DNA of 64,000 bases from Cynocephalus volans (Eukaryota; Chordata; Mammalia; Dermoptera; Cynocephalidae): NCBI RefSeq assembly GCF_027409185.1, contig NC_084463.1, forward strand, positions 157,468,369 through 157,532,368, given 5' to 3'. Under the pieces are notes generated by a model. The model saw nothing but the letters and a program-made list of their open reading frames with translations. It was not told the origin of the DNA and did not search any database. Positions 2,181 through 33,500 of this stretch are shown here, piece by piece. The position numbers and the translations under genes are program-made. Within the stretch, counting starts at the first letter, position 1. Every line of letters begins with the position of its first letter.

Positions 2181-2184
2181 TCAC

Positions 2185-5675: not shown

Positions 5676-5694
5676 ACACTTAACCTGCAGATAT

Positions 5695-10150: not shown

Positions 10151-10289
10151 AGGCTTGATTTGAACTGCTTACAGGAAGCTGCCCACGGACCATCAATCCA
10201 TCAAATCATTCTGCTTTTGTGGATAGTTTGTGGTTCTTTGCAGCCATTCCCACTTTCTCATATGAATCCTTTTATTTGTGGGCCTGTCT

Positions 10290-10450
10290 GTTTCCTCTCT
10301 CCTAAGAAAGTCAGTTCCCCAAGAGCAAGGACTTATTCCTCCATCTGATTCCATAGCACACAGCACAGGGCCAGCTGAGAGGAGAAGCTCAGCAGATTGT
10401 TCTCAACATGGGATGGATGCAGAGCTGGATGGGTGGATGGATGAAAACTC
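10290..10450 (+). mobile_element. L2 3'-end relic (tentative)
   Basis: It has the usual order of an L2 tail: a 'CCAAGAGCAAGGACTTATTC' type block, then 'CACAGCACAGGGCC', then TGGATGG-type repeats. The similar piece at 16205-16350 occupies the same place in the inner duplicate unit. Confidence 0.4.
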
Positions 10451-10489
10451 CATCCACGAAAGATCATGTATTCATCATCATCTTATGCT

Positions 10490-10640
10490 AGACCTTGTGA
10501 CAGAAGCTTTACAGAGAGCATCTATCACTTCTACAGAAAATGGGTGTATCATTTACACCCATTTTCAAAAGAGGAAATGGAAGCTCAGAGGGACCAGCAT
10601 TGTAACCTGCCCAAAGACACTTCACGACCAGATATAGTAT
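10490..10640 (-). mobile_element. MIR relic (antisense)
   Basis: The reverse complement of a MIR core is visible: 'CCCATTTTCAAAAGAGGAAA', then 'AAGCTCAGAG', then 'GTAACCTGCCCAAAGAC'. It contains the new hairpin described separately. Confidence 0.5.
10536..10566. repeat. Perfect 13-bp hairpin present only in the left arm
   Basis: Bases 10536-10548 (GAAAATGGGTGTA) are the exact reverse complement of 10554-10566 (TACACCCATTTTC), with a 5-base loop. The right arm keeps the second half (31725-31737) but has unrelated bases, ending GTATCAT on the paired strand, in place of the first half. Between two copies that otherwise agree closely this looks like a template-switch replacement. Confidence 0.85.
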
Positions 10641-11764
10641 CTAGGAACAAAATCCACATCTGCACGAGCCCAAATCCCTTCACCATCTATCATTCGGCTC
10701 TGCCTGCCCTAAGCAATCATTTACTCTCCTAGTCCACCACATCCTTTGAGTCAGTGGAAGGAAAATCCTGAAATGCCAACAGAGACATTAACAAGAATTG
10801 ACTTGGAGATTTATAACACAGTATATTTATGAATCTGAATTAACTTACTGACATAATTCTTGTAAAAAGAAGATTTCAGCAGAGATTACTGATACCTATT
10901 CTCCAAATCTTAAAGCACCTTTCTGAAAAAGAGGTGTCTGTAGGTGAGGGAAGTTTGCTTCCCAGAGGCAGATTGTGGTATTTCCCCTAGCCTGGCTGAT
11001 TGCACCAGGAGACACGGTCATAGAGGGTAGGAATTGGTTTGCACCTTGCAGAAAAGGAGAAAAAGTCAATGTAGGAGGCTAAGCAGCAGGAGGTGGAAGA
11101 CGAGCCTTTCGCTTCAGACTCAGAGACCGGCATGCATCTCCAAACTTGCCCCCTTTTGACCTTTCTGGATACTTCTTCAGCTCTCCAGAACTGAAGTTTG
11201 TAGGCCATTCATTGATTTTACTATTTTAAAAGTAATCACAGTAGGTTCATGCCCTCTGCCATTTCTTCAGGAGCTACTGTTGAAGAATGTGAGGTGGGAC
11301 CAGGTGAGACTTAACAGGCTGCGGACACTGGGGTGGCAGCAGGTGGAAACTGTAAACAGGAGCGAGACCTGTATTCTCACCCCCATCGGACGTCCTCTCC
11401 CAGCACTGTTGACACCTCTGAAGACAAGACACCTCCAGCTGTCAGCTCTCTCCATGATTCACATCCTCCATTCCTTTTGTGCTGAAGATGTCAACAACAT
11501 GCATCAACCTCTGTTTGAAAGTGAAAATACATTGAGATTTTAGCAAGTACAAGGGTTGACTTGTGCTGGTTTTCTTTACTTCAACTGTTGTTGGCGGTCC
11601 CTTGACTGCTGCTCTAACGCAGGGCCCCTAATTACTTTCCACAACAAGATTTGCTAGTCTCTGCCTAGACTCTCTTAGTCAATCCACTTCTACCATCTAC
11701 TTATACACAAGGAAATGGTCAATATTCTGACAACAAAGCTATGATTTAGTCATGTGGTTACATA

Positions 11765-12620
11765 AATAAATCTTCAGTTGCTCACGTTTATCTTTTTTAA
11801 ATTTTAACATTTCTTTGTATATACTTGTGTGGTACAGTGTGTTGTTTCTATACATGCATACACTGCATAATGGCTCACGAGTGTAGACAGCATAGCTTTG
11901 TGCCCATTAATCCACCCCTTCTCCTCCCACTGGCACCCTTTCCCTTCCCACTGCCTCCTCACCACTAGTAACCACTATTCTACCCTCTACTTCCATGAGG
12001 ACTTTTTTTTTCAATATTCCACATGCGAATGGGATCATGGGGTATTTGTGTCTCTGTCATTGGCCTACTTTATTTCACATGATGGTCTCCACTTCCATCC
12101 ATGTCACTGCAAATGACAGGATTGTTTTTATTTTATAGCCACAGAGTATTTCATTCTGCATACATATCAAGTTTTTTAATCCATTCAATCATTGATGGGC
12201 ATTTATGCAAAATAGTGAATATTGTCACAATGGACATGGGAGCTCCGGTGTCTCTTTGATATGTTGATTTCATTTACTTTGCCAATATACCCAGTAGTGG
12301 ACTTACTGGGTTATAAATTTGATTTATTTTGTTTTCTGACGAACCTTCATACTGTTTTCCGCAATGGCTGTGTCAATTTACAATCCCATCAACAGTGCAG
12401 GGGGCTTCTTTTTCCACTCATCGTTGCCAGCATTTATTTTTTCTGTCTTGTTGATAACAGCCATTCTAACCGAGGTGAGATGATATCTCATTACAGTTTT
12501 AATTTGGATTTCCCTGAGGATAGTGATGGTGAGCATTTTTCCATGTGTCTTTTGGACATTTGTATGTACTCTTTTGAGAAATGTTTGTTAAATGGCTCTT
12601 TTTGCTACACAATATGGCTG
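11765..12620 (-). mobile_element. L1 3' end relic (antisense)
   Basis: The reverse complement reads as the end of L1 ORF2 plus 3' UTR: the 'CCCAGTAGTGG' block, 'CCATTCTAACCGAGGTGAGATG' region, 'GGATGGAAGTGGAGACCATC' type block and 'TTCCACATGCGAATGGGATC'. The paired copy at 29675-30525 has about 2% differences. The long open frame at 12222-12686 is an antisense reading of this element, not a gene. Confidence 0.85.
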
Positions 12621-14545
12621 AATATGCAAACACAGAAATTAGAATTTGCAGCTCTGTGTAATAACCACAACTTCACATTGACTTAAAATAAGGCTTCTCT
12701 TTTCTCTCTCTCTTGATGCTTCCATCAATTCTCCAGGGGTTAACTAGTCATGGTTCTGACCTCTCCAGTGCTGGGGAACAGGAAATAGGGAAAACAAGGG
12801 AATAAGAATGAACTTATGTGACAGCTCTTCGGTGGCTGTTCTAGGCTCTGTGGGCTTTGCAGGTGCTCCATCCCATGGGACGCTTTCATGGATCTCAGAA
12901 AGTCCACATTCCTGACGTCTCTCGCTTTTTGGACATCTTAAAAATTATTCAAAAGGCAATAAAGAAGTCGAGAAAAAGAAAAGTATGATAGGTGGAAAAA
13001 TTAATGTAGGAGTGGAAGACGAAACTAAAGTGGTGAAAAAAAGAATATTTGTAGAGAAAAATTAAATGAATGAAATCTATAGAAGTAAAGGGGCGAGTTA
13101 GAGCGGATCAATTCAGGATGTTCAACTGCAAAATTCCCAGATGAGAAAGAAATTATATGGTGGGTACAAAAACATCAAAAATTACACCAGAACATCCCCC
13201 AAATGAAGGATTTGAGATTTAAAAGGTCCATTCTCTCCCCATGCAAAAATATCATGGTGAAAATTAGCAACATCTTCCTAAAGAGTTTCCTGCTAAACAG
13301 AACACTAGGTCATATTCAAGGATGAAGAATGAAAATAGCATCAACCAAAAAGACTTCAATGCAAAGCAACACTGCTGAAAATTTATAGAATTTTCACCCT
13401 ATAATTCTATCAGGGTAAATTTCTATAATCAGCCAACTGTCACTCAAGCGTGATGATAGAGAAATATTCAGACATGCAAATTTCCCCCTATTTTACGTCC
13501 ACCAAGCTTTTCTCCAAAAGACAGTGGAAGATTTTCTCTGTAAAGGAGGGAATAGAAGGAGAAAGAGAAAAGCATGGGGTCCAGGGCAGAGGATTTGACG
13601 CAGGAGTAGAGACGTCTGAACGTGATGCCGACCAGAGACCTGTGCTCAAAATGATTCAGACCCATGAAGGTAAACACCAGGGGAAACTCTGACACAAGTC
13701 GGAGGTGACATGGACACTATCATGGGCATGGGAAGAGGAGGAAACAAGTGTTTGTCATTACAACCCACTCTACACCATTTTCTGTCTCACACATTGCACC
13801 TGTATCACATTAGACATTAAACTTCAAAGAAAGAGATGCTGGAAGACAAGTGCAAAGGAAGGAAATGTGGAAGAAATTGTGGAAAAATGTGGGAGGAGTC
13901 AGAACCATGACTAGTGCTATCACTAGAGAGGTGATAATTTACTGGAAAGCAGTTAAGATGCTGTAGATTATCTTAGGTCAGCTCAAAACCCACCACACAA
14001 CTAACAGGAGTTTGATATATTTTATTGAAAGAAATAGCAGATTTCCGTATATAATGAATTACATGTTGAATGACTAGAGACAAGACAGAGGACTGAGGAA
14101 TGATAAGAGATATATTTCACAGAGAATATTTTGTCTTACATATTTTAAAAAATATATATATATATATTTGTCTTAGGTATTACATATTACATATTATTAA
14201 CCTATGGAAGCTAAAGTCCTTCTGAGCTGTGCATCTCCAGGAAGGGAGGCTCTGTGCAGGGGGTGATGGCTGTGTGAGGTCATAAGGACCTACAGGATGA
14301 GGATGACTGAAAGGTGGAAGTAAGGCCCTCCTGGTGGGCAAAGCTGCCTGGGCCTGGGTGTCGAGGTGACACTGAGTCCAGCCTATGGGAGGGCAATGAT
14401 GCCCACAAACCTGCAGGGATCTTGCTGTACCTGGGGCTGCATTCACTGTGCACTAGAGGCAAGGCCATCTAGCACTGCTGATGTATCAATACGAGACCAA
14501 GTGCTTTTCAATATTTACATACACATGGCCTCTCCACTACAGCAC
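12620..14545. other. No gene seen; AT-rich, LINE-like in part
   Basis: The sequence is AT-rich, with a short (TA)n run near 14150-14168. It is similar to the older duplicate at 37030-38100 when read through the right arm. Both strands show only short frames that do not look coding. Confidence 0.4.
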
Positions 14546-14735
14546 CCTTGATTTTGATGTGAATATCAGAATTCAGTAGGATGTTTAATTCCTTGCCCCT
14601 GACACTTGATATCAGTAGCACACCCATCCTCCTCCACTTGGGACAACCACAAACAACTCTAGACATTGACAGATGTTCTCCAAGTTTTCGGGGAAGGTCA
14701 AAATTGCCCCTGCTGAGAACCACTGCTCTAGCAGT
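14545..14735 (-). mobile_element. MER5-type (hAT-Charlie) relic
   Basis: The reverse complement begins with the typical 'CTAGAGCAGTGGTTCTCAGC' terminus and holds the 'TGTCAATGTCTAGAG' block. It has the same position within the inner duplicate unit as the MER5A piece at 5695 in the outer unit. Confidence 0.65.
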
Positions 14736-16050
14736 GGGGATACTTTATATAAACTCCCCATATATGTCTTGTTATGCCCTTGTGTTCTAGAGGCTCACAA
14801 CCATGGGATGACTACAGGGACAAGGAAAATGTTGGCATTGAAGTGAAAGGAAAATTACTAACTGACTGGCATAGATATTGGTGTAGATATATAATGATCC
14901 AAGTCAAATGTCACATGTACCCAGGCATTGACATTTTTAACCACGCACATTTCAGGGAAATGGCAGGTTGTGTACTTTCAGGGTTTGGTGAAGGAGCCAA
15001 GGAGAATTAGCCGGGGGCTGACACCTGACTGGCTCTACTTCCAATATCGGCTCCTGGTCCCAATTCATCAGACAGATCCTGGTTAGATCATACCACGATG
15101 CCAGTCACTCCTGGAATAAGAGACATTGAGGTGGCTCAGGCAACGGATGGCAGGGACTCTAAATACCTCCTCTCCTCACCTGCCTGCTTCCTCACTTATG
15201 TCAAGGTCCTCATTTGCACAGGAAAACACAAATGGTGGTTCTATTGCCCAGGACATCAGGCTGATGTCTGATTTCAGTCTTAAGTCCTATGTGTGTTTTT
15301 ACTAAAACTAATTTTAAGTGAGTTCTCGTTTTTAATAAACCTAGTAATGAAACATGTAAGACAATTGAAAAACTCTTTGTAAGAGAAGTACAATGTGTTC
15401 TTGAACATCATTTACATAAATATTAACTAAGCACCGAATATCAGGCTATAGTAGAAAGAAGACGTGCACATGCCGTGGGTTCAAGACCTTGAACAGAGCA
15501 AGGGCCAGTAATCAGGGTGCTGGAGATGTCAGGAGAGGGATGTTCATGGACAGCCCTGAGGTCCTGTGACTGGGGAGATTCCGGAGATGCAGGGACCAGG
15601 GAAGGGCACAGACATGGCTGTGTTTGATGTGGCTTACGGAATGAGGCATCTTTCATCCCAGAGTGACAGGCACAGTGGAGGAGGGGAGACAACGAAGAGC
15701 AAAGGCCTCTAGCAGGTGACTGTGGCCCCTAAAGAATCAACCCTGAGTTCACACAGCACAGCAGTGGGAGTCAAGGACACAGGGATAGCCTAGAACCATA
15801 ATATGAAGGTTCCTCAGGGTTAAGCCAAAGAGGTAAATAGAGTTGAGAGAAGTCTCTGGAGTCAGAACGTCTGGCTTAATAGCCTGGTTCAGCCACTCAC
15901 TGGCTGTGTCCTCTGGGTAAGTCTGAACCTCTCTATGTCCCATTTACTTTGGGGCTAAAATATGTCCACCTCACAGGGAGTTGACACCAGTGCCAGGTTC
16001 CTCAGAAGAGTCCTGGCTTGTGTTGTTGTCCTGACATCCTGTCCATCTCA
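14690..16050 (+). repeat. Older direct duplicate (inner unit, left arm)
   Basis: This is the partner of 5700-7230, about 9 kb away in the same orientation. The homology continues from 16050 into the SCGB2A upstream region, which is matched by about 10160-11150 in the outer unit. The ancestral duplication therefore took in the flank upstream of a secretoglobin gene. It includes a MIR relic at about 15845-15960. Confidence 0.6.
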
Positions 16051-16204
16051 TGTTCATTTTCACCATCAAAGTGCCCAAGTGTGAGACATAAATCACACGG
16101 TGTCCCTTCTGACGGGATTGCTCTTGCGAGTCCATAACAGGACCACAGCAGTGACTGCCACTTCCCCACTTCCCCCATGGATGTGTGTGCCTGTCTGCTG
16201 CCAC

Positions 16205-16350
16205 CCAGTTTAGAAAGTGAGCTGTACAAGGGCAAGGGCCTGCTCTGCCTTGTTCCTTTAATTGATTCTGTCACATGTAGCTCAGGGGCCAGTGCATGGG
16301 ACAAGCTCAACAATAATTCACGGATGAATGGATGGAGGGACGGAGGGATA
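16205..16350 (+). mobile_element. L2 3'-end relic
   Basis: It shows 'GTGAGCTGTACAAGGGCAAG', 'GCTCAGGGGCCAGTGCATGG', 'GCTCAACAATAATTCA' and a GGATGGA repeat, the order expected for an L2 tail. The left boundary of the identical gene-conversion tract (16314) falls inside it. Confidence 0.55.
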
Positions 16351-17072
16351 AACACCCCCACTCATGCGTGGTCACCTTATGTGAGGCCGTGTGATAGAAT
16401 CCTTACACAGAGCGACTGTCCTCCTTAGGACATCCCGACAAGGGATCACGCATACCCAAGGAAGCTCAGAGACAATATTGGAACTTGCCCAAGGACACGT
16501 CATGACCAGATGGTGCATCGAGTATCCAAATCCACACGAGCATGAGCCGAATCCCGCACCGTCCACCGTGCAGCCCTGCCTGCCCTCAGCAATTTGAAAG
16601 GAAAACCCTGAAAAAAAACAACAAGGAAATAAATGCACGTATTAACACATTTACAATACGATGAACTTGTGAAGTTACTAAGTGAGAAAATCCTTATAGA
16701 AATGACTTTCAGTGGAGGGCGGATGTCGGTAAATACCCACACAGAACGTCAAGCACGTTTCAGAACGTGAGAGTCGGTGGCTGAGCAGAGCCTGCCCCCT
16801 GGAGGCGGCGTGCGGCACTGCAGCAGGCCCGCTGCTCAGTGGAGCCAGCTCATGCAGGGGGCGCTGTGAGCACCTGGAGCAGGTGCAGAAGACGAGGAAG
16901 AGCAAAGGGAGAAGGACCCCAAGGAAGAGGCGGGAAGCAGGAGGTTTCTACACGCCTGTCACACACTGGCTGGGCTCCCGCCAGTGCAGGCTGTTCCTTC
17001 CTGGTCCCGTGCCAGGTTGAGTCTGTGACTCATTCCCTGATTCCTGGGAGGGATTAAGGTGGCTGCCTGGGG

Positions 17073-17107
17073 AATAAATAGAGGAGCTCTGGGTGCTCAC
17101 CTCCAAA
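17073..17107 (+). promoter_or_regulatory. Core promoter of the left SCGB2A gene
   Basis: A TATA-like AATAAATAG lies at 17073-17081, about 85-90 bases before the start codon. CACCTCCAAA follows at 17098-17107, where transcription should begin. The same ten bases follow a TATA-like AAATAG upstream of SCGB1D. The leader after it ends CAGCTGCCTCACC-ATG, like the human SCGB2A leaders. Confidence 0.65.
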
Positions 17108-17164
17108 GCGAGGTACTTGATCCCTGCCGCAGTCGCCTGCACAGCCAACAACAGCTGCCTCACC

Positions 17165-20118
17165 ATGAAGCTGCTGGTGGTCCTCATGCTGGCCGCCCTC
17201 CCCCTCTACTGCTCTGCAGGTGAGTTCTGTGCACAGAGGGCTGCCTGTCAGCTGGGGGTTGATTCCTGGGCCCTGGGCAAGATCTCCCAGTTCCCAGGCC
17301 CCAGCACAGGTGAGTCTCGGTGCAAAGGGTCTGGGTGTAATAGGCCTAAGCATCACCATTAATTCCAGACAGTCAAAGAGCAGGTTCCCTCATGGGCTGT
17401 GCCCCTGTATTGGAGCTGGATGGAGCGTCTCATACCCATTGAGAGTGTCCCACCATGGTGCAGCTACCCTGAAAACCAGGATGAGACTCAGGATTGAGTA
17501 TTTGAATGAGACATTTCAGTGGGGCAAGGGAAAGATATGAAGGATGGACCCATGGCATTGGATCCACATGGGTTCCCTGAAAGAGGCACTCCCGGGTCTC
17601 CTTAAACATGGGAGGAAATGGGAAAACCTCAGGAGGGAAGATTCAGGCTGCAGCGTGTGACCCAGTGTCTCACACCATGTGGGGCTCACTCTGCACTCCC
17701 AGCGTTGATCTCAGCCTTTGTGGAGGGCACATTAACTCCGAGCCCCTTGGTGCTCGAAGCAGGCTGGGGAGGACTCACACCCTCTGGAGTCTCCTTCCAG
17801 CATTAAAGACCCAGAGGGAGGACAAAGCCCTGAAGGCCAGAATCTGGGCAGCACTAACAGGTCACATGTGTAGCCTACTTTGTACAACTGACAAGGCTCA
17901 CTTGCATACCCTCCCTCATTTGTTCCCAAAGTAGGTGCAGACGGGTAAAAAGGTGCTCTGCTCACAGGCAACGAAATGGAAAAATGCAGACCCAGGAGCA
18001 AACCGGCTCTCGTGAATCCAGGTCCCGAGCTTTGTCCCCTCGTCCTCAGGGGTGGCCGCATCAGGTCGCTTCATGAACAGGAGGTTCTGTTTTACCTTCC
18101 TTGTCGATGCAGACCACAGTTAGAGTTAAAAGAGTTAATGGACAGTGCTCTAGACCCAATGCTTCTGTGATACTTGAAATCCTACTTGAGGCTCTGAATG
18201 ATAACAGTGAACCACGGCACGACTGTCATCCAAGAAAGAGGAAACAGTGTTGAGTATGTCCCACCAAGTCAGAGCTTGTCATTTCTCCAGCCTCCTCATA
18301 AAGCCACTTTGCACGGGGTTTGGCTCCTCTGAGCTGGGGGGTTTAGGGGGACAGATGCTGCAAGGCTTAAATCCGGAGCCTGAGTTTACTGTCCTAGAAC
18401 CGAGGACCCGAGAAACGGACCACAGTCCTTCGTCATCAGTGTCTCTAGTGGGTGCAAGAAGATGAGTGACATGACAGGACTCCCCCAGTGGGCTCACACC
18501 TCCAGCAATGAGCCTGTTTTCTCACGCTCTCTCCTCAGGGTCTGGCTGTCAACTTCTCGAGGATGTGATTTACAATGTGATCAATTCCGGGGTGTCTACA
18601 GCTCAACTGAAACAATCTATTCAACAGTTCATACCAGATAACGCCACTGCCAACGCCGTAGATGAATTCAAACAGTGCTTCCTCCAGCAATCAAATGACA
18701 CTCTGAGCAATATACAAAACCTGATGGTAAATTAGCCTTCTTCTTATGTGCCTTAAAACTCACTGACCAGGAACGGGCAGGCTCTAAATTTCTCACCAGT
18801 AATGCCGAGCAGCCTCTGACCAGGTTTTTGGTGGTTTGGGGATTGTCTTTTGTATGGGTTAATTTAATTTTGCTGTAAGGCTGATTCGCTTCACTTTGAG
18901 AATCTTTAGTGAATGATCAATGGAAAAGAGAGAAATAGAGGTCGAGAAATGGCTTGTCACCCCCTTCAAGTCCCCAGGACACGCTCACACACAGACACAC
19001 AGACATGCATGAGCACAAGACACACGCAGGGACAGACACACACATCTTCTGTCCAGACAAGACAGTCTGATTCTCAAGGAGCCACTCACCTGTTGGAACA
19101 ACCCACAAAGAAAGTTCCCACTTCTCACAGAAACAGATAGCAAAAACGTTCTGATACAAAGTTTACAGTGTCCAGAAAATAGCATTTGTGTAAATTCTAC
19201 ATATTCCAATATAAAGAATTTAAAACCTAGGTCTCACCACGGTGACTTGCTGGCACACGTGATTGGAATCCCAGTGTCATTTGTTCAGGCACCTCCTGAA
19301 GTTACAAGTGCATGTCACGGGGTGAGACCAGCGTGGGTGACAGAACTGCTTAAAACAGAAGCCAGCGTTTCAGCAATGACTAAGTACAAACACATGCGCT
19401 GTGCTCTGTTGTTAGCATTTATTTAACATCGCAATATTCCACTTAAAGCACTTCATGATAGAAAAATTAGAAATATACCAAAGAGCGTAAGGATCACAGT
19501 GGACGTCTCCTGCAGTTTAGGAAGGGGGAGCACGTGCTCTTCGAAAACCCAGACCGCGTTCCTCATTGCCAGGGCGGAGGCCGGATTTGCAGGCCCCGAA
19601 GGAAACGTGGAGGGCCTCAGACTGCTACAGGATTTCTGACTTTTAAGGCCATATGGGAACTCAAAAGTATCACGTCCTTGTACTTGAACTGAGATGGTGA
19701 CAATTCTCTGAAAAAGTGAAAAAGTGGTATCACAAACAGCTCAGATTGGCAGGTCTCCAACAAATGTTACATGCAGCGTATTTATTGAATACATTACATC
19801 AGGGAACAGGACTTTTGGAGAAACAAGCTTCAAAGGGGTCCCTGGCAGGGAAAAGGTCCCAAAACACTGGCCACCTGTCTGGCATCAATAAATCTCTCCA
19901 GGATCACAGAATAAAAAGAGAGATAATTCTCACTTGCTTCCAGTACTAATTTTCTTGGGTATTAGATGTTTGTGGACAGATGCAGGAAAATAGCACAAAG
20001 AACTGTGTGTGGATATTGATATTGGACTTTGTAAGAGAGAGTGGAAAATCGAAGCGACGTCTCTGTTCTTGTTTTCCAGGAGAGAATCTATGGCAGCTTT
20101 TGGTGTAAGGCGTATTAA
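17165..20118 (+). CDS. SCGB2A2-like: Mammaglobin-like secretoglobin (SCGB2A family), left copy
   Basis: This is a small secreted secretoglobin with three coding exons: 17165-17219, 18539-18726 and 20080-20118. The junctions are G|GTGAGT, CTCCTCAG|GG, ATG|GTAAAT and TTTTCCAG|GA. The product has 93 residues, the length of human SCGB2A2. Residues 1-18 form a hydrophobic signal peptide (MKLLVVLMLAAL...), with cleavage likely before Gly19. Cys22, Cys65 and Cys90 match the three family cysteines used for disulfide-linked dimers. Asn53 (NAT) and Asn71 (NDT) are potential glycosylation sites. The helical core includes 'LLEDVIYNVIN' and 'DEFKQCFLQQS'; the tail is GSFWCKAY. Secretoglobins bind small hydrophobic ligands in gland and mucosal secretions. 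The match is shared between SCGB2A1 (FKQCFL, FWC) and SCGB2A2 (DNAT, DTLSN), so 1:1 orthology is unsettled. The start is fixed by the signal peptide and CACC context. Confidence 0.93.
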
Positions 20119-20258
20119 CTTTCCTCAGGACCCTGGGCTCAGACTATGGTCAGAAACCAACTGCCGATTGCTTTGAACCAAAACCTTTCTTTCTTATTTT
20201 GTCATTTTATCTATAAACTGCAAGACAATTGTTGAAACCTCAAATACATTTTCATTTC

Positions 20259-20264
20259 AATAAA
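20259..20264 (+). terminator. Poly(A) signal of the left SCGB2A gene
   Basis: AATAAA lies 141 bases after the stop codon; cleavage is expected near 20280. This gives a short 3' UTR, as is usual in the family. Confidence 0.8.
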
Positions 20265-20947
20265 CTGAGTGCAAAAAACTAAAGCTCCTGTCTGTTCTGC
20301 CACAGAAAGGGAGACGTTGGGGACCTCACACATCACACTGCAGCTGCAGCGGGTGCACATTCACAGATGACGCAGCAAGGCAGGGGTGGGGACAGAAGAG
20401 CACACAGAGCTCCTTTTTCCTCGCCCTGTGTCCCCAAGCACTGTTCCTCTCTCTGGAAAAGGCTTTTCCTCCCCTCGTGGCCACCACCTCCCATGGGACT
20501 GCCTCTGAGGTCCTGACCCATGGGTGCTGTGGGGGGTCGTGCCCTGAGTCCCCACCCCCACCACAGCCCTCCTGTCACTCTGAGACCTGCCTGCGGGGCC
20601 AGGTTCCTCTGGGCTCTGTCTCCACCCACCCTGGGTTGCAGTGACTGGAGCCAGCGAATGAGGTGACTCCTGCAAAACAGACTGAAGTCTGTCCTGATTT
20701 TAATCTAGATTTTGTTCCTCATGGATTTGGGCATTAATTTTGGTCTTTACAAATATTGCACTAAAATAGTATTGCTGAGTTGTATGGCACCCCTTAAACT
20801 GGGGGACTCTCCCTGTCCCTGCAGTGGGAATGTGGCCCTTTCTCTCCCCCACACTGAGCTGCAGAGGCCATGGACATGGTGGGAGCTGCATGGTATGTAG
20901 GCACAAAGCGCATTGGACGCTCATAGGTGCCAGTGTTCCTGTCCCCA

Positions 20948-21344
20948 GGGTCATCATTGCTGCTGCCTCTGTTCCCACATTAGCTGCCCCAGAGTCCTCT
21001 CACCAGGAAGACCCTGTCTGTTTCTCAGAATGGCTCAGCTCCCACCTGGGCCGCCTCTTCCAACAGGCACAGCGTGTGCAGGGACGCAGGCCTACAGTAC
21101 TATAGGGGTCCATGAAAATGTCACAAATCAAAAAAAATCAGAAACAAATGTGACAATAACAATAATAATAATAATAATAAAGATGAATATATATCAATGA
21201 ATTCAGTTGGATGATGTTCCCTGCTACACCAACGCAGTTGTGAAATGTAGTGTTTAGTATGTTTTATGGGGAAGTTGCTCAGAAATGCAATAAGACCTAA
21301 GACCTACAAATGCAAAAGAAAGCACGTCAGGCCTCACTAAGGAA
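20948..21344. other. Spacer between the inverted arms
   Basis: About 397 bases have no mirror partner. They contain an A-rich stretch with an (AAT)n microsatellite at about 21155-21181. On both sides the last 74 bases of the arms (20874-20947 and 21345-21418) are still homologous but differ at 14 places. No gene seen. Confidence 0.85.
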
Positions 21345-22027
21345 TGGGGACAGGAACGCTGGCACCCATGAGCATCCAATGGGCTTCGTGTCTATGCACC
21401 ACGCAGCTCCGTCCACCTCCATGGCCTCTGCAGCTCAGTGTGGGGGAGAGAAAGGGCCACATTCCCACTGCAGGGACAGGGAGAGTCCCCCAGTTTAAGG
21501 GGTGCCATACAACTCAGCAATACTATTTTAGTGCAATATTTGTAAAGACCAAAATTAATGCCCAAATCCATGAGGAACAAAATCTAGATTAAAATCAGGA
21601 CAGACTTCAGTCTGTTTTGCAGGAGTCACCTCATTCGCTGGCTCCAGTCACTGCAACCCAGGGTGGGTGGAGACAGAGCCCAGAGGAACCTGGCCCCGCA
21701 GGCAGGTCTCAGAGTGACAGGAGGGCTGTGGTGGGGGTGGGGACTCAGGGCACGACCCCCCACAGCACCCATGGGTCAGGACCTCAGAGGCAGTCCCATG
21801 GGAGGTGGTGGCCACGAGGGGAGGAAAAGCCTTTTCCAGAGAGAGGAACAGTGCTTGGGGACACAGGGCGAGGAAAAAGGAGCTCTGTGTGCTCTTCTGT
21901 CCCCACCCCTGCCTTGCTGCGTCATCTGTGAATGTGCACCCGCTGCAGCTGCAGTGTGATGTGTGAGGTCCCCAACGTCTCCCTTTCTGTGGCAGAACAG
22001 ACAGGAGCTTTAGTTTTTTGCACTCAG

Positions 22028-22033
22028 TTTATT
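22028..22033 (-). terminator. Poly(A) signal of the right SCGB2A gene
   Basis: TTTATT on + is AATAAA on -. It lies 141 bases past the stop codon. The two convergent genes' poly(A) signals are about 1.76 kb apart. Confidence 0.8.
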
Positions 22034-22173
22034 GAAATGAAAATGTATTTGAGGTTTCAACAATTGTCTTGCAGTTTATAGATAAAATGACAAAATAAGA
22101 AAGAAAGGTTTTGGTTCAAAGCAATCGGCAGTTGGTTTCTGACCATAGTCTGAGCCCAGGGTCCTGAGGAAAG

Positions 22174-25127
22174 TTAATACGCCTTACACCAAAAGCTGCC
22201 ATAGATTCTCTCCTGGAAAACAAGAACAGAGACGTCGCTTCGATTTTCCACTCTCTCTTACAAAGTCCAATATCAATATCCACACACAGTTCTTTGTGCT
22301 ATTTTCCTGCATCTGTCCACAAACATCTAATACCCAAGAAAATTAGTACTGGAAGCAAGTGAGAATTATCTCTCTTTTTATTCTGTGATCCTGGAGAGAT
22401 TTATTGATGCCAGACAGGTGGCCAGTGTTTTGGGACCTTTTCCCTGCCAGGGACCCCTTTGAAGCTTGTTTCTCCAAAAGTCCTGTTCCCTGATGTAATG
22501 TATTCAATAAATACGCTGCATGTAACATTTGTTGGAGACCTGCCAATCTGAGCTGTTTGTGATACCACTTTTTCACTTTTTCAGAGAATTGTCACCATCT
22601 CAGTTCAAGTACAAGGACGTGATACTTTTGAGTTCCCATATGGCCTTAAAAGTCAGAAATCCTGTAGCAGTCTGAGGCCCTCCACGTTTCCTTCGGGGCC
22701 TGCAAATCCGGCCTCCGCCCTGGCAATGAGGAACGCGGTCTGGGTTTTCGAAGAGCACGTGCTCCCCCTTCCTAAACTGCAGGAGACGTCCACTGTGATC
22801 CTTACGCTCTTTGGTATATTTCTAATTTTTCTATCATGAAGTGCTTTAAGTGGAATATTGCGATGTTAAATAAATGCTAACAACAGAGCACAGCGCATGT
22901 GTTTGTACTTAGTCATTGCTGAAACGCTGGCTTCTGTTTTAAGCAGTTCTGTCACCCACGCTGGTCTCACCCCGTGACATGCACTTGTAACTTCAGGAGG
23001 TGCCTGAACAAATGACACTGGGATTCCAATCACGTGTGCCAGCAAGTCACCGTGGTGAGACCTAGGTTTTAAATTCTTTATATTGGAATATGTAGAATTT
23101 ACACAAATGCTATTTTCTGGACACTGTAAACTTTGTATCAGAACGTTTTTGCTATCTGTTTCTGTGAGAAGTGGGAACTTTCTTTGTGGGTTGTTCCAAC
23201 AGGTGAGTGGCTCCTTGAGAATCAGACTGTCTTGTCTGGACAGAAGATGTGTGTGTCTGTCCCTGCGTGTGTCTTGTGCTCATGCATGTCTGTGTGTCTG
23301 TGTGTGAGCGTGTCCTGGGGACTTGAAGGGGGTGACAAGCCATTTCTCGACCTCTATTTCTCTCTTTTCCATTGATCATTCACTAAAGATTCTCAAAGTG
23401 AAGCGAATCAGCCTTACAGCAAAATTAAATTAACCCATACAAAAGACAATCCCCAAACCACCAAAAACCTGGTCAGAGGCTGCTCGGCATTACTGGTGAG
23501 AAATTTAGAGCCTGCCCGTTCCTGGTCAGTGAGTTTTAAGGCACATAAGAAGAAGGCTAATTTACCATCAGGTTTTGTATATTGCTCAGAGTGTCATTTG
23601 ATTGCTGGAGGAAGCACTGTTTGAATTCATCTACGGCGTTGGCAGTGGCGTTATCTGGTATGAACTGTTGAATAGATTGTTTCAGTTGAGCTGTAGACAC
23701 CCCGGAATTGATCACATTGTAAATCACATCCTCGAGAAGTTGACAGCCAGACCCTGAGGAGAGAGCGTGAGAAAACAGGCTCATTGCTGGAGGTGTGAGC
23801 CCACTGGGGGAGTCCTGTCATGTCACTCATCTTCTTGCACCCACTAGAGACACTGATGACGAAGGACTGTGGTCCGTTTCTCGGGTCCTCGGTTCTAGGA
23901 CAGTAAACTCAGGCTCCGGATTTAAGCCTTGCAGCATCTGTCCCCCTAAACCCCCCAGCTCAGAGGAGCCAAACCCCGTGCAAAGTGGCTTTATGAGGAG
24001 GCTGGAGAAATGACAAGCTCTGACTTGGTGGGACATACTCAACACTGTTTCCTCTTTCTTGGATGACAGTCGTGCCGTGGTTCACTGTTATCATTCAGAG
24101 CCTCAAGTAGGATTTCAAGTATCACAGAAGCATTGGGTCTAGAGCACTGTCCATTAACTCTTTTAACTCTAACTGTGGTCTGCATCGACAAGGAAGGTAA
24201 AACAGAACCTCCTGTTCATGAAGCGACCTGATGCGGCCACCCCTGAGGACGAGGGGACAAAGCTCGGGACCTGGATTCACGAGAGCCGGTTTGCTCCTGG
24301 GTCTGCATTTTTCCATTTCGTTGCCTGTGAGCAGAGCACCTTTTTACCCGTCTGCACCTACTTTGGGAACAAATGAGGGAGGGTATGCAAGTGAGCCTTG
24401 TCAGTTGTACAAAGTAGGCTACACATGTGACCTGTTAGTGCTGCCCAGATTCTGGCCTTCAGGGCTTTGTCCTCCCTCTGGGTCTTTAATGCTGGAAGGA
24501 GACTCCAGAGGGTGTGAGTCCTCCCCAGCCTGCTTCGAGCACCAAGGGGCTCGGAGTTAATGTGCCCTCCACAAAGGCTGAGATCAACGCTGGGAGTGCA
24601 GAGTGAGCCCCACATGGTGTGAGACACTGGGTCACACGCTGCAGCCTGAATCTTCCCTCCTGAGGTTTTCCCATTTCCTCCCATGTTTAAGGAGACCCGG
24701 GAGTGCCTCTTTCAGGGAACCCATGTGGATCCAATGCCATGGGTCCATCCTTCATATCTTTCCCTTGCCCCACTGAAATGTCTCATTCAAATACTCAATC
24801 CTGAGTCTCATCCTGGTTTTCAGGGTAGCTGCACCATGGTGGGACACTCTCAATGGGTATGAGACGCTCCATCCAGCTCCAATACAGGGGCACAGCCCAT
24901 GAGGGAACCTGCTCTTTGACTGTCTGGAATTAATGGTGATGCTTAGGCCTATTACACCCAGACCCTTTGCACCGAGACTCACCTGTGCTGGGGCCTGGGA
25001 ACTGGGAGATCTTGCCCAGGGCCCAGGAATCAACCCCCAGCTGACAGGCAGCCCTCTGTGCACAGAACTCACCTGCAGAGCAGTAGAGGGGGAGGGCGGC
25101 CAGCATGAGGACCACCAGCAGCTTCAT
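22174..25127 (-). CDS. SCGB2A2-like: Mammaglobin-like secretoglobin (SCGB2A family), right copy
   Basis: The coding exons are 25073-25127, 23566-23753 and 22174-22212, with the same splice sites as the left copy. The predicted 93-residue protein is identical: signal peptide 1-18, Cys22/Cys65/Cys90, sequons at Asn53 and Asn71, and C-terminal GSFWCKAY. No frame or splice damage is visible. It lies on the same strand as, and downstream of, SCGB1D (45784-48965), which is the order of the human SCGB1D-SCGB2A pairs. I therefore infer that this copy keeps the ancestral position and the left one is the inverted duplicate. The identical promoter and flanks suggest similar expression. By analogy with human mammaglobin and lipophilin B, the product probably pairs with an SCGB1D chain by disulfide bonds and is secreted; that partnership is inferred. 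Confidence 0.93.
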
Positions 25128-25184
25128 GGTGAGGCAGCTGTTGTTGGCTGTGCAGGCGACTGCGGCAGGGATCAAGTACCTCGC

Positions 25185-25219
25185 TTTGGAGGTGAGCACC
25201 CAGAGCTCCTCTATTTATT
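25185..25219 (-). promoter_or_regulatory. Core promoter of the right SCGB2A gene
   Basis: This is the mirror of 17073-17107: TATA-like AATAAATAG at 25211-25219 and CACCTCCAAA at 25185-25194, both on the - strand. It is identical to the left promoter. Confidence 0.65.
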
Positions 25220-26239
25220 CCCCAGGCAGCCACCTTAATCCCTCCCAGGAATCAGGGAATGAGTCACAGACTCAACCTGGCACGGGACCAGGAAGGAACA
25301 GCCTGCACTGGCGGGAGCCCAGCCAGTGTGTGACAGGCGTGTAGAAACCTCCTGCTTCCCGCCTCTTCCTTGGGGTCCTTCTCCCTTTGCTCTTCCTCGT
25401 CTTCTGCACCTGCTCCAGGTGCTCACAGCGCCCCCTGCATGAGCTGGCTCCACTGAGCAGCGGGCCTGCTGCAGTGCCGCACGCCGCCTCCAGGGGGCAG
25501 GCTCTGCTCAGCCACCGACTCTCACGTTCTGAAACGTGCTTGACGTTCTGTGTGGGTATTTACCGACATCCGCCCTCCACTGAAAGTCATTTCTATAAGG
25601 ATTTTCTCACTTAGTAACTTCACAAGTTCATCGTATTGTAAATGTGTTAATACGTGCATTTATTTCCTTGTTGTTTTTTTTCAGGGTTTTCCTTTCAAAT
25701 TGCTGAGGGCAGGCAGGGCTGCACGGTGGACGGTGCGGGATTCGGCTCATGCTCGTGTGGATTTGGATACTCGATGCACCATCTGGTCATGACGTGTCCT
25801 TGGGCAAGTTCCAATATTGTCTCTGAGCTTCCTTGGGTATGCGTGATCCCTTGTCGGGATGTCCTAAGGAGGACAGTCGCTCTGTGTAAGGATTCTATCA
25901 CACGGCCTCACATAAGGTGACCACGCATGAGTGGGGGTGTTTATCCCTCCGTCCCTCCATCCATTCATCCGTGAATTACTGTTGAGCTTGTCCCATGCAC
26001 TGGCCCCTGAGGCTACATGTGACAGAATCAATTAAAGGAACAAGGCAGAGCAGGCCCTTGCCCTTGTGCAGCTCACTTTCTAAACTGGGTGGCAGCAGAC
26101 AGGCACACACATCCATGGGGGACGTGGGGAAGTGGCAGTCACTGCTGTGGTCCTGTTATGGACTCGCAAGAGCAATCCCGTCAGAAGGGACACCGTGTGA
26201 TTTATGGCCCACACTTGGGCACTTTGTGAAAATGAACAT

Positions 26240-27600
26240 GAGATGGACAGGATGTCAGGACAACAACACAAGCCAGGACTCTTCTGAGGAACCTGGCACT
26301 GGTGTCAACTGCCTGTGAGGTGAACATATTTAACCCCCAATGGAAATGGGACATAGAGAGGTCCAGACTTACCCAGAGGACACAGCCAGTGAGTGGCTGA
26401 ACCAGGCTATGAAGCCAGACGTTCTGGCTCCAGAGACTTCTCTCAGCTCTATTTACCTCTTTGGCTTCACCCTGAAGGACCTTCATGTTATGGTTCAAAC
26501 TTATCCCTGTGTCCTTGCCTCCCACTGCTGTGCTGTGTGAACTCAGGGTTGATTCTGTAGGGGCCACAGTCACCTGCTTGAGGCCTTTGCTCCCCGTTGT
26601 CTCCCCTCCTCCACTGTGCCTGTCACTCTGGGATGAAACATGCCTCATTCCCTAAGCCACATCAAACACAGCCATGCCTGTGCCCTTCCCTGGCCCCTGC
26701 ATCTCCGGAATCTCCCCAGTCACAGGACCCCAGGGCTGTCCATGAACATCCCTCTCCTGACATCTCCAGCACCCTGATTACTGGCCCCTGCTCTGTTCAA
26801 GGTCTTGAACCCACGGCATGTGCACGTCTTCTTTCTACTATAGCCTGATATTCGGTGCTTAGTTAATATTTATGTAACTGATGTTCAAGAACACATTGTA
26901 TTTCTCTTACAAAGAGTTTTTTAATTGTATTACATGTTTCATTACTAGGTCTATTAGAAACATGAACTCATTTAAAATTAGTTTCAGTAAAAACACACAT
27001 AGGACTTAAGACTGAAATCAGACATCAGCCTGATGTCCTGGGCAATAGAACCACCATTTGTGTTTTCCTGTGCAAATGAGGACCTTGACACAAGAGCGGA
27101 AGACTTCAGGCAGGTGAGGAGAGGAGGTATTTAGAGTCCCTGTCATCCGTTGCCTGAGCCACCTCAATGTCTCTTTTTCCAGGAGTGACTGGCATCGTGG
27201 TATGACCTAACCAGGATCAATCTAATGAATTGGGACCAGGAGCCGGTATTGGAAGTAGAACCATAATCAAGTGTCAGCCCCTGGCTAATTCTCCTCGGCT
27301 CCTTCACCAAACCCTGAAAGTACACAACCTGCCATTTCCCTGAAATGTGCGTGGTTAAAAATGTCAATGCCTGGGTACATGTGACATTTGACTTGGATCA
27401 CTATGTATCTACACCAATATCTATGCCAGTCAGTTGGTAAATTTCCTTTCACTTCAATGCCAACATTTTCCTTGTCCCTGTAGTCAGCCCATGGTTATGA
27501 GCCTCTGGTCCATGGGGGCACTACAAGAGGTACGTGGGGAGATGATGTAAAGTATCCCCACTGCTAGAGCAGTGGTTCTCAGCGGGGCAATTTTGACCTT
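26240..27600 (-). repeat. Older direct duplicate (inner unit, right arm)
   Basis: This is the mirror of 14690-16050. It resembles 35060-36520 in the same arm. Compare the block near 26700 ('ATCTCCGGAATCTCC') with that near 35669 ('ATCTCCGGCATCTCC'), followed in both by 'CCCTCTCCTGAC' and 'CACCCTGATTACTGGCCCC' type sequence. A MIR relic (antisense) lies at about 26330-26450. Confidence 0.6.
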
Positions 27601-27745
27601 CCCCGAAAATTTGGAGAACGTCTGTCAATGTCTAGAGTTGTTTGTAATTGTCCCAAGGAGCATGGGTGTGCTACTGATATCAAGTATCAGGGGCAAGGAA
27701 TTAAACATCCTACTGAATTCTGATATTCACATCAAAATCAAGGGT
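27560..27745 (+). mobile_element. MER5-type (hAT-Charlie) relic
   Basis: It begins 'GCTAGAGCAGTGGTTCTCAG' and mirrors 14545-14735 with few differences. Confidence 0.65.
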
Positions 27746-27749
27746 GCTG

Positions 27750-29670
27750 TAGTCGAGGGGCCATGTGTATGTAAATATTGAAAAGCACTTGGTCTCGTAT
27801 TGATACATCAGCAGTGCTAGATGGCCTTGCCTCTAGTGCACAGTGAATGCAGCCCCAGGCACAGCAAGATCCCTGCAGGTGTGTGGGCATCATTGCCCTC
27901 CTGTGGGCTGGACTCAGTGTCACCTCCACGCCCAGGCCCAGGCAGCTTTGCCCACCAGGAGGGCCTTACTTCCACCTTTCAGTCATCCTCATCCTGTAGG
28001 TCCTTATGACCTCACACAGCCATCACTCCCTGCACAGAGCCTCCCTTCCTGGAGATGCACAGCTCAGAAGGACTTTAGCTTCCATAGGTTAATAATATGT
28101 AATATGTAATACCTAAGACAAATATATATATATATAATTTTTTAAATATGTAAGACAAAATATTCTCTGTGAAATATATCTCTTATCATTCCTCAATCCT
28201 CTGTCTTGTCTCTAGTCATTCAACATGTAATTCATTATATACGGAAATCTGCTATTTCTTTCAATAAAATATATCAAACTCCTGTTAGGTGCGTGGTGTT
28301 TTTTCAGCTGACCTAAGATAATCTACAGCATCTTAACTGCTTTCCAGTAAATTATCACCTCTCTAGTGATAGCACTAGTCATGGTTCTGACTCCTCCCAC
28401 ATTTTTCCACAATTTCTTCCACATTTCCTTCCTTTGCACTTGTCTTCCAGCATCTCTTTCTTTGAAGTTTAATGTCTAATGTGATACAGGTGCAATGTGT
28501 GAGACAGAAAATGGTGTAGAGTGGGTTGTAATGACAAACACTTGTTTCCTCCTCTTCCCATGCCCATGATAGTGTCCATGTCACCTCCGACTTGTGTCAG
28601 AGTTTCCCCTGGTGTTTACCTTCATGGGTCTGAATCATTTTGAGCACAGGTCTCTGGTCGGCATCACGTTCAGACGTCTCTACTCCTGCGTCAAATCCTC
28701 TGCCCTGGACCCCATGCTTTTCTCTTTCTCCTTCTATTCCCTCCTTTATAGAGAAAATCTTCCACTGTCTTTTGGAGAAAAGCTTGGTGGACATAAAATA
28801 GGGGGAAATTTGCATGTCTGAATATTTCTCTATCATCACGCTTGAGTGACAGTTGGCTGATTATAGAAATTTACCCTGATAGAATTATAGGGTGAAAATT
28901 CTATAAATTTTCAGCAGTGTTGCTTTGCATTGAAGTCTTTTTGGTTGATGCTATTTTCATTCTTCATCCTTGAATATGACCTAGTGTTCTGTTTAGCAGG
29001 AAACTCTTTAGGAAGATGTTGCTAATTTTCACCATGATATTTTTGCATGGGGAGAGAATGGACCTTTTAAATCTCAAATCCTTCATTTGGGGGATGTTCT
29101 GGTGTAATTTTTGATGTTTTTGTACCCACCATATAATTCCTTTCTCATCTGGGAATTTTGTAGTTAAACATCCTGAATTGATCCGCTCTAACTCGCCCCT
29201 TTACTTCTATAGATTTCATTCATTTAATTTTTCTTTACAAATATTCTTTTTTTCACCACTTTAGTTTCGTCTTCCACTCCTACATTAATTTTTCCACCTA
29301 TCATACTTTTCTTTTTCTCGACTTCTTTGTTGCCTTTTGAATAATTTTTAAGATGTCCAAAAAGCGAGAGACGTCAGGAATGTGGACTTTCTGAGATCCA
29401 TGAAAGCGTCCCATGGGATGGAGCACCTGCAAAACCCACAGAGCCTAGAACAGCCACCGAAGAGCTGTCACATAAGTTCATTCTTATTCCCTTGTTTTCC
29501 CTATTTCCTGTTCCCCAGCACTGGAGAGGTCAGAACCATGACTAGTTAACCCCTGGAGAATTGATGGAAGCATCAAGAGAGAGAGAAAAGAGAAGCCTTA
29601 TTTTAAGTCAATGTGAAGTTGTGGTTATTACACAGAGCTGCAAATTCTAATTTCTGTGTTTGCATATTCA
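27750..29670. other. No gene seen; mirror of 12620-14545
   Basis: AT-rich sequence with a (TA)n run near 28122-28136. It shares weak similarity with 37030-38100 from the older tandem duplication. Open frames mirror those of the left arm and do not look coding. Confidence 0.4.
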
Positions 29671-29674
29671 GCCA

Positions 29675-30525
29675 TATTGTGTAGCAAAAAGAGCCATTTA
29701 ACAAACATTTCTCAAAAGAGTATATACAAATGTCCAAAAGGCACATGGAAAAATGCTCACCATCACTATCCTCAGGGAAATCCAAATTAAAACTGCAACG
29801 AGATACCATCTCACCTCGGTTAGAATGGCTGTTATCAACAAGACAGAAAAAATAAATGCTGGCAACGATGAGTGGAAAAAGAAGCCCCCTGCACTGTTGA
29901 TGGGATTGTAAATTGACACAGCCATTGTGGAAAACAGTATGAAGGTTCGTCAGAAAACAAAATAAATCAAATTTATGACCCAGTAAGTCCACTACTGGGT
30001 ATATTGGCAAAGTAAGTGAAATCAACATATCGAAGAGACACCCGAGCTCCCATGTCCATTGTGACAATATTCACTATTTTGCATAAATGCCCATCAATGA
30101 ATGAATGGATTAAAAAACTTGATATGTATGCAGAATGAAATACTCTGTGGCTATAAAATAAAAACAATCCTGTCATTTGCAGTGACATGGATGGAAGTGG
30201 AGACCATCATGTGAAGTAAAGTAGGCCAATGACAGAGACACAAATACCCCATGATCCCATTCGCATGTGGAATATTGAAAAAAAAAAATTCCTCATGGAA
30301 GTAGAGGGTAGAATAGTGGTTACTAGTGGTGAGGAGGCAGTGGGGAGGGACAGGGTGCCACTGGGAGGAGAAGGGGTGGATTAATGGGCACAAAGCTATG
30401 CTGTCTACACTCGTGAGCCATTATGCAGTGTATGCATGTATAGAAACAACACACTGTACCACACAAGTATATACAAAGAAATGTTAAAATTTAAAAAAGA
30501 TAAACGTGAGCAACTGAAGATTTAT
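29675..30525 (+). mobile_element. L1 3' end relic
   Basis: The sense reading shows the L1 ORF2 end and 3' UTR, including 'AAATTGACACAGCCATTGTGG', 'CACTACTGGGTATATTGGCA' type sequence and 'GACATGGATGGAAGTGGAG'. It mirrors 11765-12620. Confidence 0.85.
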
Positions 30526-30529
30526 TTAA

Positions 30530-33500
30530 GTAACCACATGACTAAATCATAGCTTTGTTGTCAGAATATTGACCATTTCCTTGTGTATAAGTAGATGGTA
30601 GAAGTGGATTGACTAAGAGAGTCTAGGCAGAGACTAGCAAATCTTGTTGTGGAAAGTAATTAGGGGCCCTGCATTAGAGCAGCAGTCAAGGGACCGCCAA
30701 CAACAGTTGAAGTAAAGAAAACCAGCACAAGTCAACCCTTGTACTTGCTAAAATCTCAATGTATTTTCACTTTCAAACAGAGGTTGATGCATGTTGTTGA
30801 CATCTTCAGCACAAAAGGAATGGAGGATGTGAATCATGGAGAGAGCTGACAGCTGGAGGTGTCTTGTCTTCAGAGGTGTCAACAGTGCTGGGAGAGGACG
30901 TCCGATGGGGGTGAGAATACAGGTCTCGCTCCTGTTTACAGTTTCCACCTGCTGCCACCCCAGTGTCCGCAGCCTGTTAAGTCTCACCTGGTCCCACCTC
31001 ACATTCTTCAACAGTAGCTCCTGAAGAAATGGCAGAGGGCATGAACCTACTGTGATTACTTTTAAAATAGTAAAATCAATGAATGGCCTACAAACTTCAG
31101 TTCTGGAGAGCTGAAGAAGTATCCAGAAAGGTCAGAAGGGGGCAAGTTTGGAGATGCATGCCGGTCTCTGAGTCTGAAGCGAAAGGCTCGTCTTCCACCT
31201 CCTGCTGCTTAGCCTCCTACATTGACTTTTTCTCCTTTTCTGCAAGGTGCAAACCAATTCCTACCCTCTATGACCGTGTCTCCTGGTGCAATCAGCCAGG
31301 CTAGGGGAAATACCACAATCTGCCTCTGGGAAGCAAACTTCCCTCATCTACAGACACCTCTTTTTCAGAAAGGTGCTTTAAGATTTGGAGAATAGGTATC
31401 AGTAATCTCTGCTGAAATCTTCTTTTTACAAGAATTATGACACTAAGTTAATTCAGATTCATAAATATACTGTGTTATAAATCTCCAAGTCAATTCTTGT
31501 TAATGTCTCTGTTGGCATTTCAGGATTTTCCTTCCACTGACTCAAAGGATGTGGTGGACTAGGAGAGTAAATGATTGCTTAGGGCAGGCAGAGCCGAACA
31601 GTAGATGGTGAAGGGATTTGGGCTCGTGCAGATGTGGATTTTGTTCCTAGATACAATATCAGGTCGTGAAGTGTCTTTGGACAGGTTACAATGCTGGTCC
31701 CTCTGAACTTCCATTTCCTCTTTTGAAAATGGGTGTAAATGATACCCTGCTGTGTTCTGTAGAAGTGATAGATGCTCTCTGTAAAGCTTCTGTCACAAGG
31801 TCTAGCATAAGATGATGATGAATACATGATCTTTAATGGATGGAGTTTTCATCCATCCACCCATCCAGCTCTGCATCCATCCCATGTTGAGAACAATCTG
31901 CTGAGCTTCTCCTCTCAGCTGGCCCTGTGCTGTGAGCTATGGAATCAGATGGAGGAATAAATCCTTGCTCTTGGGGAACTGACTTTCTTACGAGAGAGGA
32001 AACAGGCCCACAAATAAAAGGATTTATATCAGAAAGTGGGAATGGCTGCACAGAACCACAAACTATCTACAAAAGCAGAATGATTTGATGGATTGATGGT
32101 CCGTGGGCAGCTTCCTGTAAGCAGTTCAAATCAAGCCTGTAGGAGGAGGTGCAGTTTTAGCTGAGAGTTAGTATCCAGTCCCGATCTGGAAGAGTTTCAG
32201 CAGCCCAGAGGCCTGCGGGCGGCTGGTACTTGGCAATGCAAGGTCAAGGAGGGAAAGAAAGTTGATGTCTTAGGGTCAAGAGAGGCACAGGACAGCTTTG
32301 TATGAATAGAAAACCCACTGCAGTTTAACTAGAGACAAGATGAAGGTAACAGGAACCAAAAAATAGGGTTGGTTCTGGTTTCCCCCCACCCTCCAAAAAA
32401 AGAAAGGAATGACGAGTGAGCCAGGGGGATGAACTGTTTCTTTATTCCCTGTGAACACATATTTGCTGTCTGGATTCTTTGTGATGTCCTCCTTCCCTTC
32501 ACTGAGCTGGAGCACAAGCTGTTCTGAGACAAGAACAAAACTGATGTACGAAGGGGCTAGAAACAAGGGCCGTGTACTTGTGTGTGTACTTTCACTCACC
32601 TGGCCATGGCTGGCATCCTTCATTCCAAAGGGAAATGAAGGACTTTGGTTATGAAGCAGGAAACTGTCTCCTTGGCCAGGACTTCTTGGGGCTCCACCTC
32701 CTGCCCTAGTCCTTCTGGACCTGCCCTGACACCTGCCGGGCCAGATGCCCTTCGGAAATTTCTTATTCATCTAAAATAAACCCCATGCCAGGTACAGGGT
32801 GCCCACATTAAAGATGCTGTGTATCTTTACCCTCCTTGTTTTATCTGGACATCTGAACATTCTCAGGTGAATCAACTCACAATAACTTGGCCTAGAAAAT
32901 TCTCATTTGCAATCCAGCATCCTTAGCAAGAATTAGGAGAGCCAAAGGGTTCAGAAGACAGTGTTGCAGGTCCAACTTTTTATCTCTCTAAAAGGGGCTT
33001 TGCCTGGTGTCTTTGAAGAGAAAGGGAGTATGTGGTAAGAAAGAGTGAAATTTGACCTGCCCTCAGGTCCTAGAAGACCCTACATACAGTGATGTATTGT
33101 GGCACATGAAAGGCCGTGCCGTGCTTCATATAAACAGGCAACCGTGAGAGCCATCTTCTTAGTGATTTGTGCATTTCCCCCAAAGCTCTAACAACATACT
33201 TTTGAAGTTTAGATGCCCATTGAGCTTTTTAAATAATTGTAAGTGATAGATATTTATCTGCGCCACTGTGTTTGGGAAGGATACCCCACATTTCCTTATT
33301 TTCTCTCATTGCACGGATCTGCTTCTGCCTGTCACTTACCAGGGTTCTGGGAAATGAAATCGACCTCAGGCACTCCTTTGGAGGTGGGCCGCACCTCTCC
33401 AAGGTCATGCCAAGTCTAGAAGCAGGTGTGGACTGTTTCCTTGGGACAGGACCTTAAGAAAAGCCTCTGTCTTGGAGCAAACTCAGGTGGCACTGGGACG

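Follow-up and report, generated by a model that had tools for sequence, protein, structure and literature searches.

The window analyzed here is a stretch of 64,000 nucleotides (C4:157468369-157532368) from the genome of the colugo Cynocephalus volans, whose assembly comprises 2.81 Gb in 130 contigs. Comparison of the window with itself uncovered a large inverted repeat arranged around a 397-bp spacer, and in each arm of this palindrome a whole three-exon mammaglobin-A-like secretoglobin gene (SCGB2A-type) lies within a tract of perfect arm identity (Table 1). The gene copy in the right arm is the exact mirror of that in the left arm (x -> 42292-x), and the two are convergent, that is, tail to tail, with 2.06 kb between their stop codons and 1.76 kb between their poly(A) signals. 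The initial annotation had the tract spanning the promoter, all exons, the introns and the poly(A) signal, and this holds for the gene model found here, which predicts a spliced coding sequence of 282 nt including the stop and a product of 93 aa with its signal peptide.

Table 1. Features of the palindrome, its identical tract and genes, and the additional copies (window positions unless a C4 coordinate is given)
Feature	Position	Strand	Basis or remark
Left palindrome arm (A) within the window	1..20947	+	self-comparison; homology at about 86-88% extends left of the window
Right palindrome arm (B), matching the window's left arm	21345..44673	-	self-comparison
Palindrome spacer, 397 bp	20948..21344	.	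collinear homologue in copy C, weaker in D
Tract copy A, 4,561 bp, 100% arm identity	16314..20874	+	arm alignment
Tract copy B, 4,561 bp	21418..25978	-	arm alignment
Innermost left arm, bounding the tract on its right; 14/73 mismatches to 21345-21417	20875..20947	+	arm alignment
Innermost right arm, partner of 20875-20947	21345..21417	-	arm alignment
TATA-like AATAAATAG, ~90 bp before the copy A ATG	17073..17081	+	read from sequence; TATA-like label inferred
Copy A exon 1, coding part, with signal peptide MKLLVVLMLAALPLYCSA; splice donor GTGAGT	17165..17219	+	sequence, gene model
Copy A exon 2, encoding most of the mature chain; splice sites CTCAG (acceptor) and GTAAAT (donor)	18539..18726	+	sequence; fits protein P0001
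Copy A exon 3, ERIYGSFWCKAY and TAA stop	20080..20118	+	sequence; C-terminus as in P0001
Copy A poly(A) signal AATAAA	20259..20264	+	sequence
Copy B exon 1, coding part	25073..25127	-	mirror of A
Copy B exon 2	23566..23753	-	mirror of A
Copy B exon 3 with stop	22174..22212	-	mirror of A
Copy B poly(A) signal	22028..22033	-	mirror of 20259-20264
Copy C	C4:157401356	+	97% identity to window 17000-18000
Copy D	C4:157656064	-	98% identity to window 17000-18000

Judged by its predicted three-exon product, the gene belongs to the secretoglobin/uteroglobin family as a mammaglobin-like SCGB2A member: exons 1-2 match PF01099 (Uteroglobin) over residues 1-81 of 81 (E 7.1e-25; 87.7 bits against a curated cut-off of 24.8), and PF01099 is present in all 30 of the 30 protein matches listed, most of which are named mammaglobin-A or -B (-like). 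Secretoglobins of the mammaglobin type are secreted as a disulfide-linked dimer with an SCGB1D-type partner, and the human SCGB2A genes are located on chromosome 11. A search of solved structures with the protein returned a single chance match (E 0.96). ARAGORN and Rfam (gathering scores) each gave 0 matches on the window, and in the Pfam scan of 10 of its 14 stop-to-stop frames of >=130 aa nothing passed the cut-off, ARL17 giving a single weak match (E 0.079); the other four frames are three right-arm mirrors of scanned frames and 26202-26651.

When positions 17000-18000 were compared with the whole genome, two further places were recovered, both on C4, which we term copies C and D. Two mammaglobin-A-like proteins of Cynocephalus volans, P0001 and P0002, are the translations of C and D, respectively. 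Copy C is collinear with window positions 13081-21350 and thus includes the spacer, from which it differs by 2.0-3.2% over 21001-21344. The palindrome itself extends past the arms as matched inside the window: beyond the left end, inverted homology of about 86-88% continues to about C4:157449298, and its partner reaches C4:157531606, near the right window edge. Divergence between the arms is uneven, amounting to 11.1% over 1-5700 (625/5638), 1.48% over 5701-14500 (129/8727), 4.88% over 14501-16313 (88/1803) and 19% over 20875-20947 (14/73), the last showing the highest divergence among the five stretches compared, tract included; within the first of these stretches there is a patch of 2% divergence (10/500) at 2001-2500. 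The figure of 2-3% that had been given for the arms outside the tract is therefore an average over very unlike stretches. About 2.37 kb present in both B and C is absent from arm A at 5686. As a side observation, arm A is C-like right beside this gap, although C carries the segment in question.

Against this background, the tract between 16314-20874 and 21418-25978 matches at 4561 of 4561 positions, with neither a mismatch nor a gap column. Both the complete identity over 4.56 kb and the exact coordinates claimed in the initial annotation were borne out, the closest differences falling at 16313/25979 and 20875/21417, and the arm alignment that it had proposed, here evaluated by stretch, gave 0% divergence in the tract against 1.5-19% around it. 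Its description of both edges as sharp stands for the right edge and only in part for the left, which is less abrupt, since mismatches already thin out from about 15980 to 16313. At the rate of 5701-14500, 67 differences would be expected in 4561 bp, and at that of 14501-16313, 223; the corresponding Poisson probabilities of observing none are 5e-30 and 2e-97. The second-longest run of identity between A and B is 461 bp. Hence, the two paralogues share a stretch of identity much longer than chance would allow, with homologous but diverged flanks on both sides, which is the pattern by which gene conversion is recognized.

Identity of this kind could also be manufactured by an assembler or polisher that placed the sequence of one arm into both, so that the differences of the second arm were lost. 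The C. volans VGP assembly GCA_027409185.1 is described as haplotype-unresolved, and its alternate haplotype as missing immunoglobulin sequence (PMC12090573), which leaves some room for such an error. However, the 4.6-kb tract is shorter than typical HiFi reads, given in the same source as 15-25 kb, and the differences at both edges (14/73 on the inside and 88/1803 on the outside) should allow reads to tell the arms apart. Moreover, copies C and D, which are close to A over long stretches, stayed separate in the assembly. We accordingly regard an assembly artefact as improbable. Two related candidates were dropped. A duplicated haplotype would be expected to produce likeness throughout. Reads folding back on themselves should leave arms identical from the center outwards; here the center of the palindrome is diverged, its innermost 73 bp being the most diverged stretch of all.

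The additional copies further allow the identity to be read against sequence outside the pair. Within the tract, copy C is distinct from A as well as from B, and so is D in the 5' part of the tract, while A and B do not differ from each other; since the divergence of C from either arm ranges over 0-9% in 250-bp intervals of the tract (0-8.7% for A-C), the region is evidently able to change. Across 16314-18305, which takes in the promoter, exon 1 and most of intron 1, A and D differ at 30 of 1989 positions (1.5%). A single recent duplication aging uniformly, with purifying selection holding the gene region identical, would accommodate the presence of a gene in the tract, but the introns and the intergenic parts of the tract show no difference between A and B and yet depart from C and D, constraint would not spare a single pair, and the neighboring arm DNA is 1.5-19% diverged. 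We consider this scenario scarcely credible, and purifying selection as such was dropped on account of the introns, which are identical in A and B and not in C or D.

The distribution of shared sites points the same way. The alignment of A, B and C over 1-20947 yields 1,330 informative sites once gap columns are removed, a step that also discards the whole of about 11,050-13,080, for which C lacks a counterpart; of these sites, 504 join A and B, 493 A and C, and 309 B and C, with all three different at the remaining 24. Every one of the 116 such sites within the tract is of the AB type, whereas the longest AB run attained in 10,000 shuffles, which assume exchangeable sites and ignore the uneven divergence along the arms, was 15 for all 1,330 sites, 24 when confined to 13081-20874 (268 sites) and 28 when confined to 5750-20874 (477 sites). 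Outside the tract, partner groupings alternate along the arms: arm A differs from C by about 2% and from B by about 13% at 4.7-5.7 kb, and a run of 48 AC sites was reached by 0 of 10,000 shuffles of all sites. With four copies, both topologies separating A from B were rejected by AU tests (p <= 0.0013) for 16314-18305 as well as for 18306-20874, the latter interval taking in ~1 kb of intron 2 in which the alignment of D is poor. In the flank at 15001-16313 the best tree is AC|BD, with AB|CD (AU p 0.16) and AD|BC (p 0.09) not rejected, so that this flank alone does not prove a different history; it is itself a mosaic, with 13 shared sites supporting AC|BD, 8 AD|BC, 6 AB|CD and 1 another pattern, alongside 25, 11, 4 and 68 sites private to A, B, C and D, respectively. 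The discordant grouping becomes clear further out, at 4.7-5.7 kb. Conversion is thus to be preferred over aging or constraint, both because C (and D in the 5' part) differs from the arms in the tract where A equals B and because the partner groupings switch along the arms; the preference for conversion over uniform aging expressed in the initial annotation is upheld on these grounds, with 116 of 116 informative sites AB, C and D differing inside the tract and the partner groupings switching.

We therefore hold that recent non-reciprocal interlocus gene conversion between the arms very probably accounts for the tract, and conversion that is recent and repeated among the copies is the best explanation of the whole pattern. 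We propose that, in an old palindrome whose inner arms carry the two SCGB2A-type genes tail to tail, the sequence of one arm replaced at least 4.56 kb of the other, whole gene included, probably in one event and not several; a break near the palindrome's center may have been repaired with the other arm as template. The copying appears to have been recent: with 0 differences in 4561 the 95% upper bound on arm divergence is 0.066%, and if the human rate of 1.2e-8 per base per generation (PMC8981503) is applied to this other species, the age is at most some 27,000 generations, a rough figure. The other shared stretches that form a mosaic among the four copies can likewise be interpreted as conversion tracts. 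Which arm served as donor was left unassigned, as the innermost 73 bp do not decide. A GC bias is frequent in gene conversion and not required by it. The few changes private to A and B within 16314-18363 showed no such bias (10 S>W versus 4 W>S), and the C-private changes in the same comparison lean likewise (17 S>W versus 7 W>S).

A sequence outcome identical to that of conversion would also follow if a 4.56-kb block had recently been cut out and replaced, through a deletion and then a second inverted duplication and without strand invasion; a similar ambiguity attends the human events (PMC10172114). However, the block is in register with its homologue, with 0 gaps within 30 bp of each edge, and other in-register exchanges of differing size are visible, which renders such a replacement very improbable, somewhat more so than an assembly error.

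Interlocus gene conversion is itself a known process. In human segmental duplications the mean size of its events is 6.26 kb, and some of them take entire genes along (PMC10172114), so that the kilobase-scale replacement in the colugo, whole gene included, is of ordinary size; it differs in lying between inverted arms 0.4 kb apart and in being seen in one assembly only. The inverted arms of mammalian sex-chromosome palindromes are likewise kept alike by intrachromosomal conversion, and sequence near their spacers may switch between arm and spacer, a further likeness to the present case (PMC8981503). Unlike those arms, which are described there as >99% alike, the colugo palindrome is homogenized in part only, the rest being 1.5-19% diverged. 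The rodent Abp secretoglobins also show lineage-specific extra copies, but in the accounts given of them gene conversion was considered and discounted (PMC2291036, PMC3477143), whereas it is well supported for the SCGB2A-type genes of the colugo, and would thus be at work in a branch of this family. In the open-licence literature, to which this statement is confined, we found no report on a secretoglobin palindrome or on a colugo secretoglobin, and the titles and abstracts shown for secretoglobin gene conversion do not feature the colugo.

What seems new is where the process is seen, that an old palindrome has been homogenized in part, and that four genes form an exon-wise mosaic. The locus offers a clean case of conversion in a mostly diverged mammalian palindrome, and because most of it is diverged, the sequence directly displays both the limits of the tract and the older mosaic. 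Relative to A, copy D differs at 9/849 positions over 16314-17164, at 0/55 in exon 1 and at 21/1085 over 17220-18305, and then at 20/228 over 18306-18538, 41/188 (22%) in exon 2 and 8/39 in exon 3. Copy C differs from A at 5/55 positions in exon 1, 0/188 in exon 2 and 0/39 in exon 3. A, B and D are identical over 304 bp around exon 1 (17123-17426), and an A-C identical run of 649 bp (18364-19012) spans exon 2; from these exon patterns it follows that the signal peptide of A and B is that of D and their mature chain that of C, and gene trees of such copies would mislead. Upstream, C equals D over 16314-16848 (A coordinates), with five substitutions and a 2-base gap in common against A and B. 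For the mature chain, the pairwise A-D estimates of Ka 0.21 and Ks 0.49 (45 synonymous sites) indicate that A and D split long ago and that only the 5' part has been overwritten.

It is possible, though we think it rather unlikely, that the four colugo mammaglobin genes are kept alike by module, with the promoter, intron 1 and the exon for the signal peptide being recycled by conversion among all four copies, D included, and with exon 2 of D remaining 22% different because its converted copies were selected against. If true, one regulatory and secretion module would be common to the family, and yet two distinct proteins would be secreted. Positive selection on the mature chain of D was also considered and dropped, the pairwise Ka/Ks of 0.43 giving it no support. 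Finally, 1 of the 30 protein matches listed comes from Galeopterus and resembles copy D: this partial protein shares 72 of 81 residues with D (89%) and 55 of 81 with C (68%), and its greater closeness to D suggests that the D type predates the split of the two colugos.

The copies of the mammaglobin-A-like secretoglobin gene lie in a locus that resembles a folded-back tandem array, since unit C, on the same contig, is a piecewise direct repeat of the palindrome's left side, its pieces being mostly 91–96% identical to that side. Two extra units follow in direct order to the right of the palindrome; they share 92% identity with each other and about 90–91% with the outer right arm, and a tblastn search of these two units with 30 mammaglobin-like proteins recovered no exon at E ≤ 0.01.

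Repeat units and runs of N around the palindrome (contig NC_084463.1)
Feature	Coordinates
Unit C	157357697-157405694
Run of 75 N, ~1 kb beyond gene copy C	157406762-157406836
First extra unit	157539611-157550708
Second extra unit	157574606-157587651
Run of 2,500 N, ~9 kb from gene copy D	157641369-157643868

The runs of N near copies C and D may represent assembly gaps. Within the palindrome, the left arm (A) lacks, at window position 5686, ~2.37 kb that is carried by both the right arm (B, about 36541-38913) and copy C; in the sequence adjoining this indel, arm A differs by ~2% from C as against 13% from B.

Exon 1 of copy C (window-equivalent 17148-17208) shows 7 differences in 61 bp from the sequence common to A, B and D, which fall in the 5′ UTR and signal peptide, the surrounding region being otherwise close; these may stem from a minor exchange in which a further gene took part. 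Finally, ~6 kb from copy D, the segment 157647630-157647701 gives a weak mammaglobin-like match (E 0.009), which is perhaps a decayed exon or a chance similarity.
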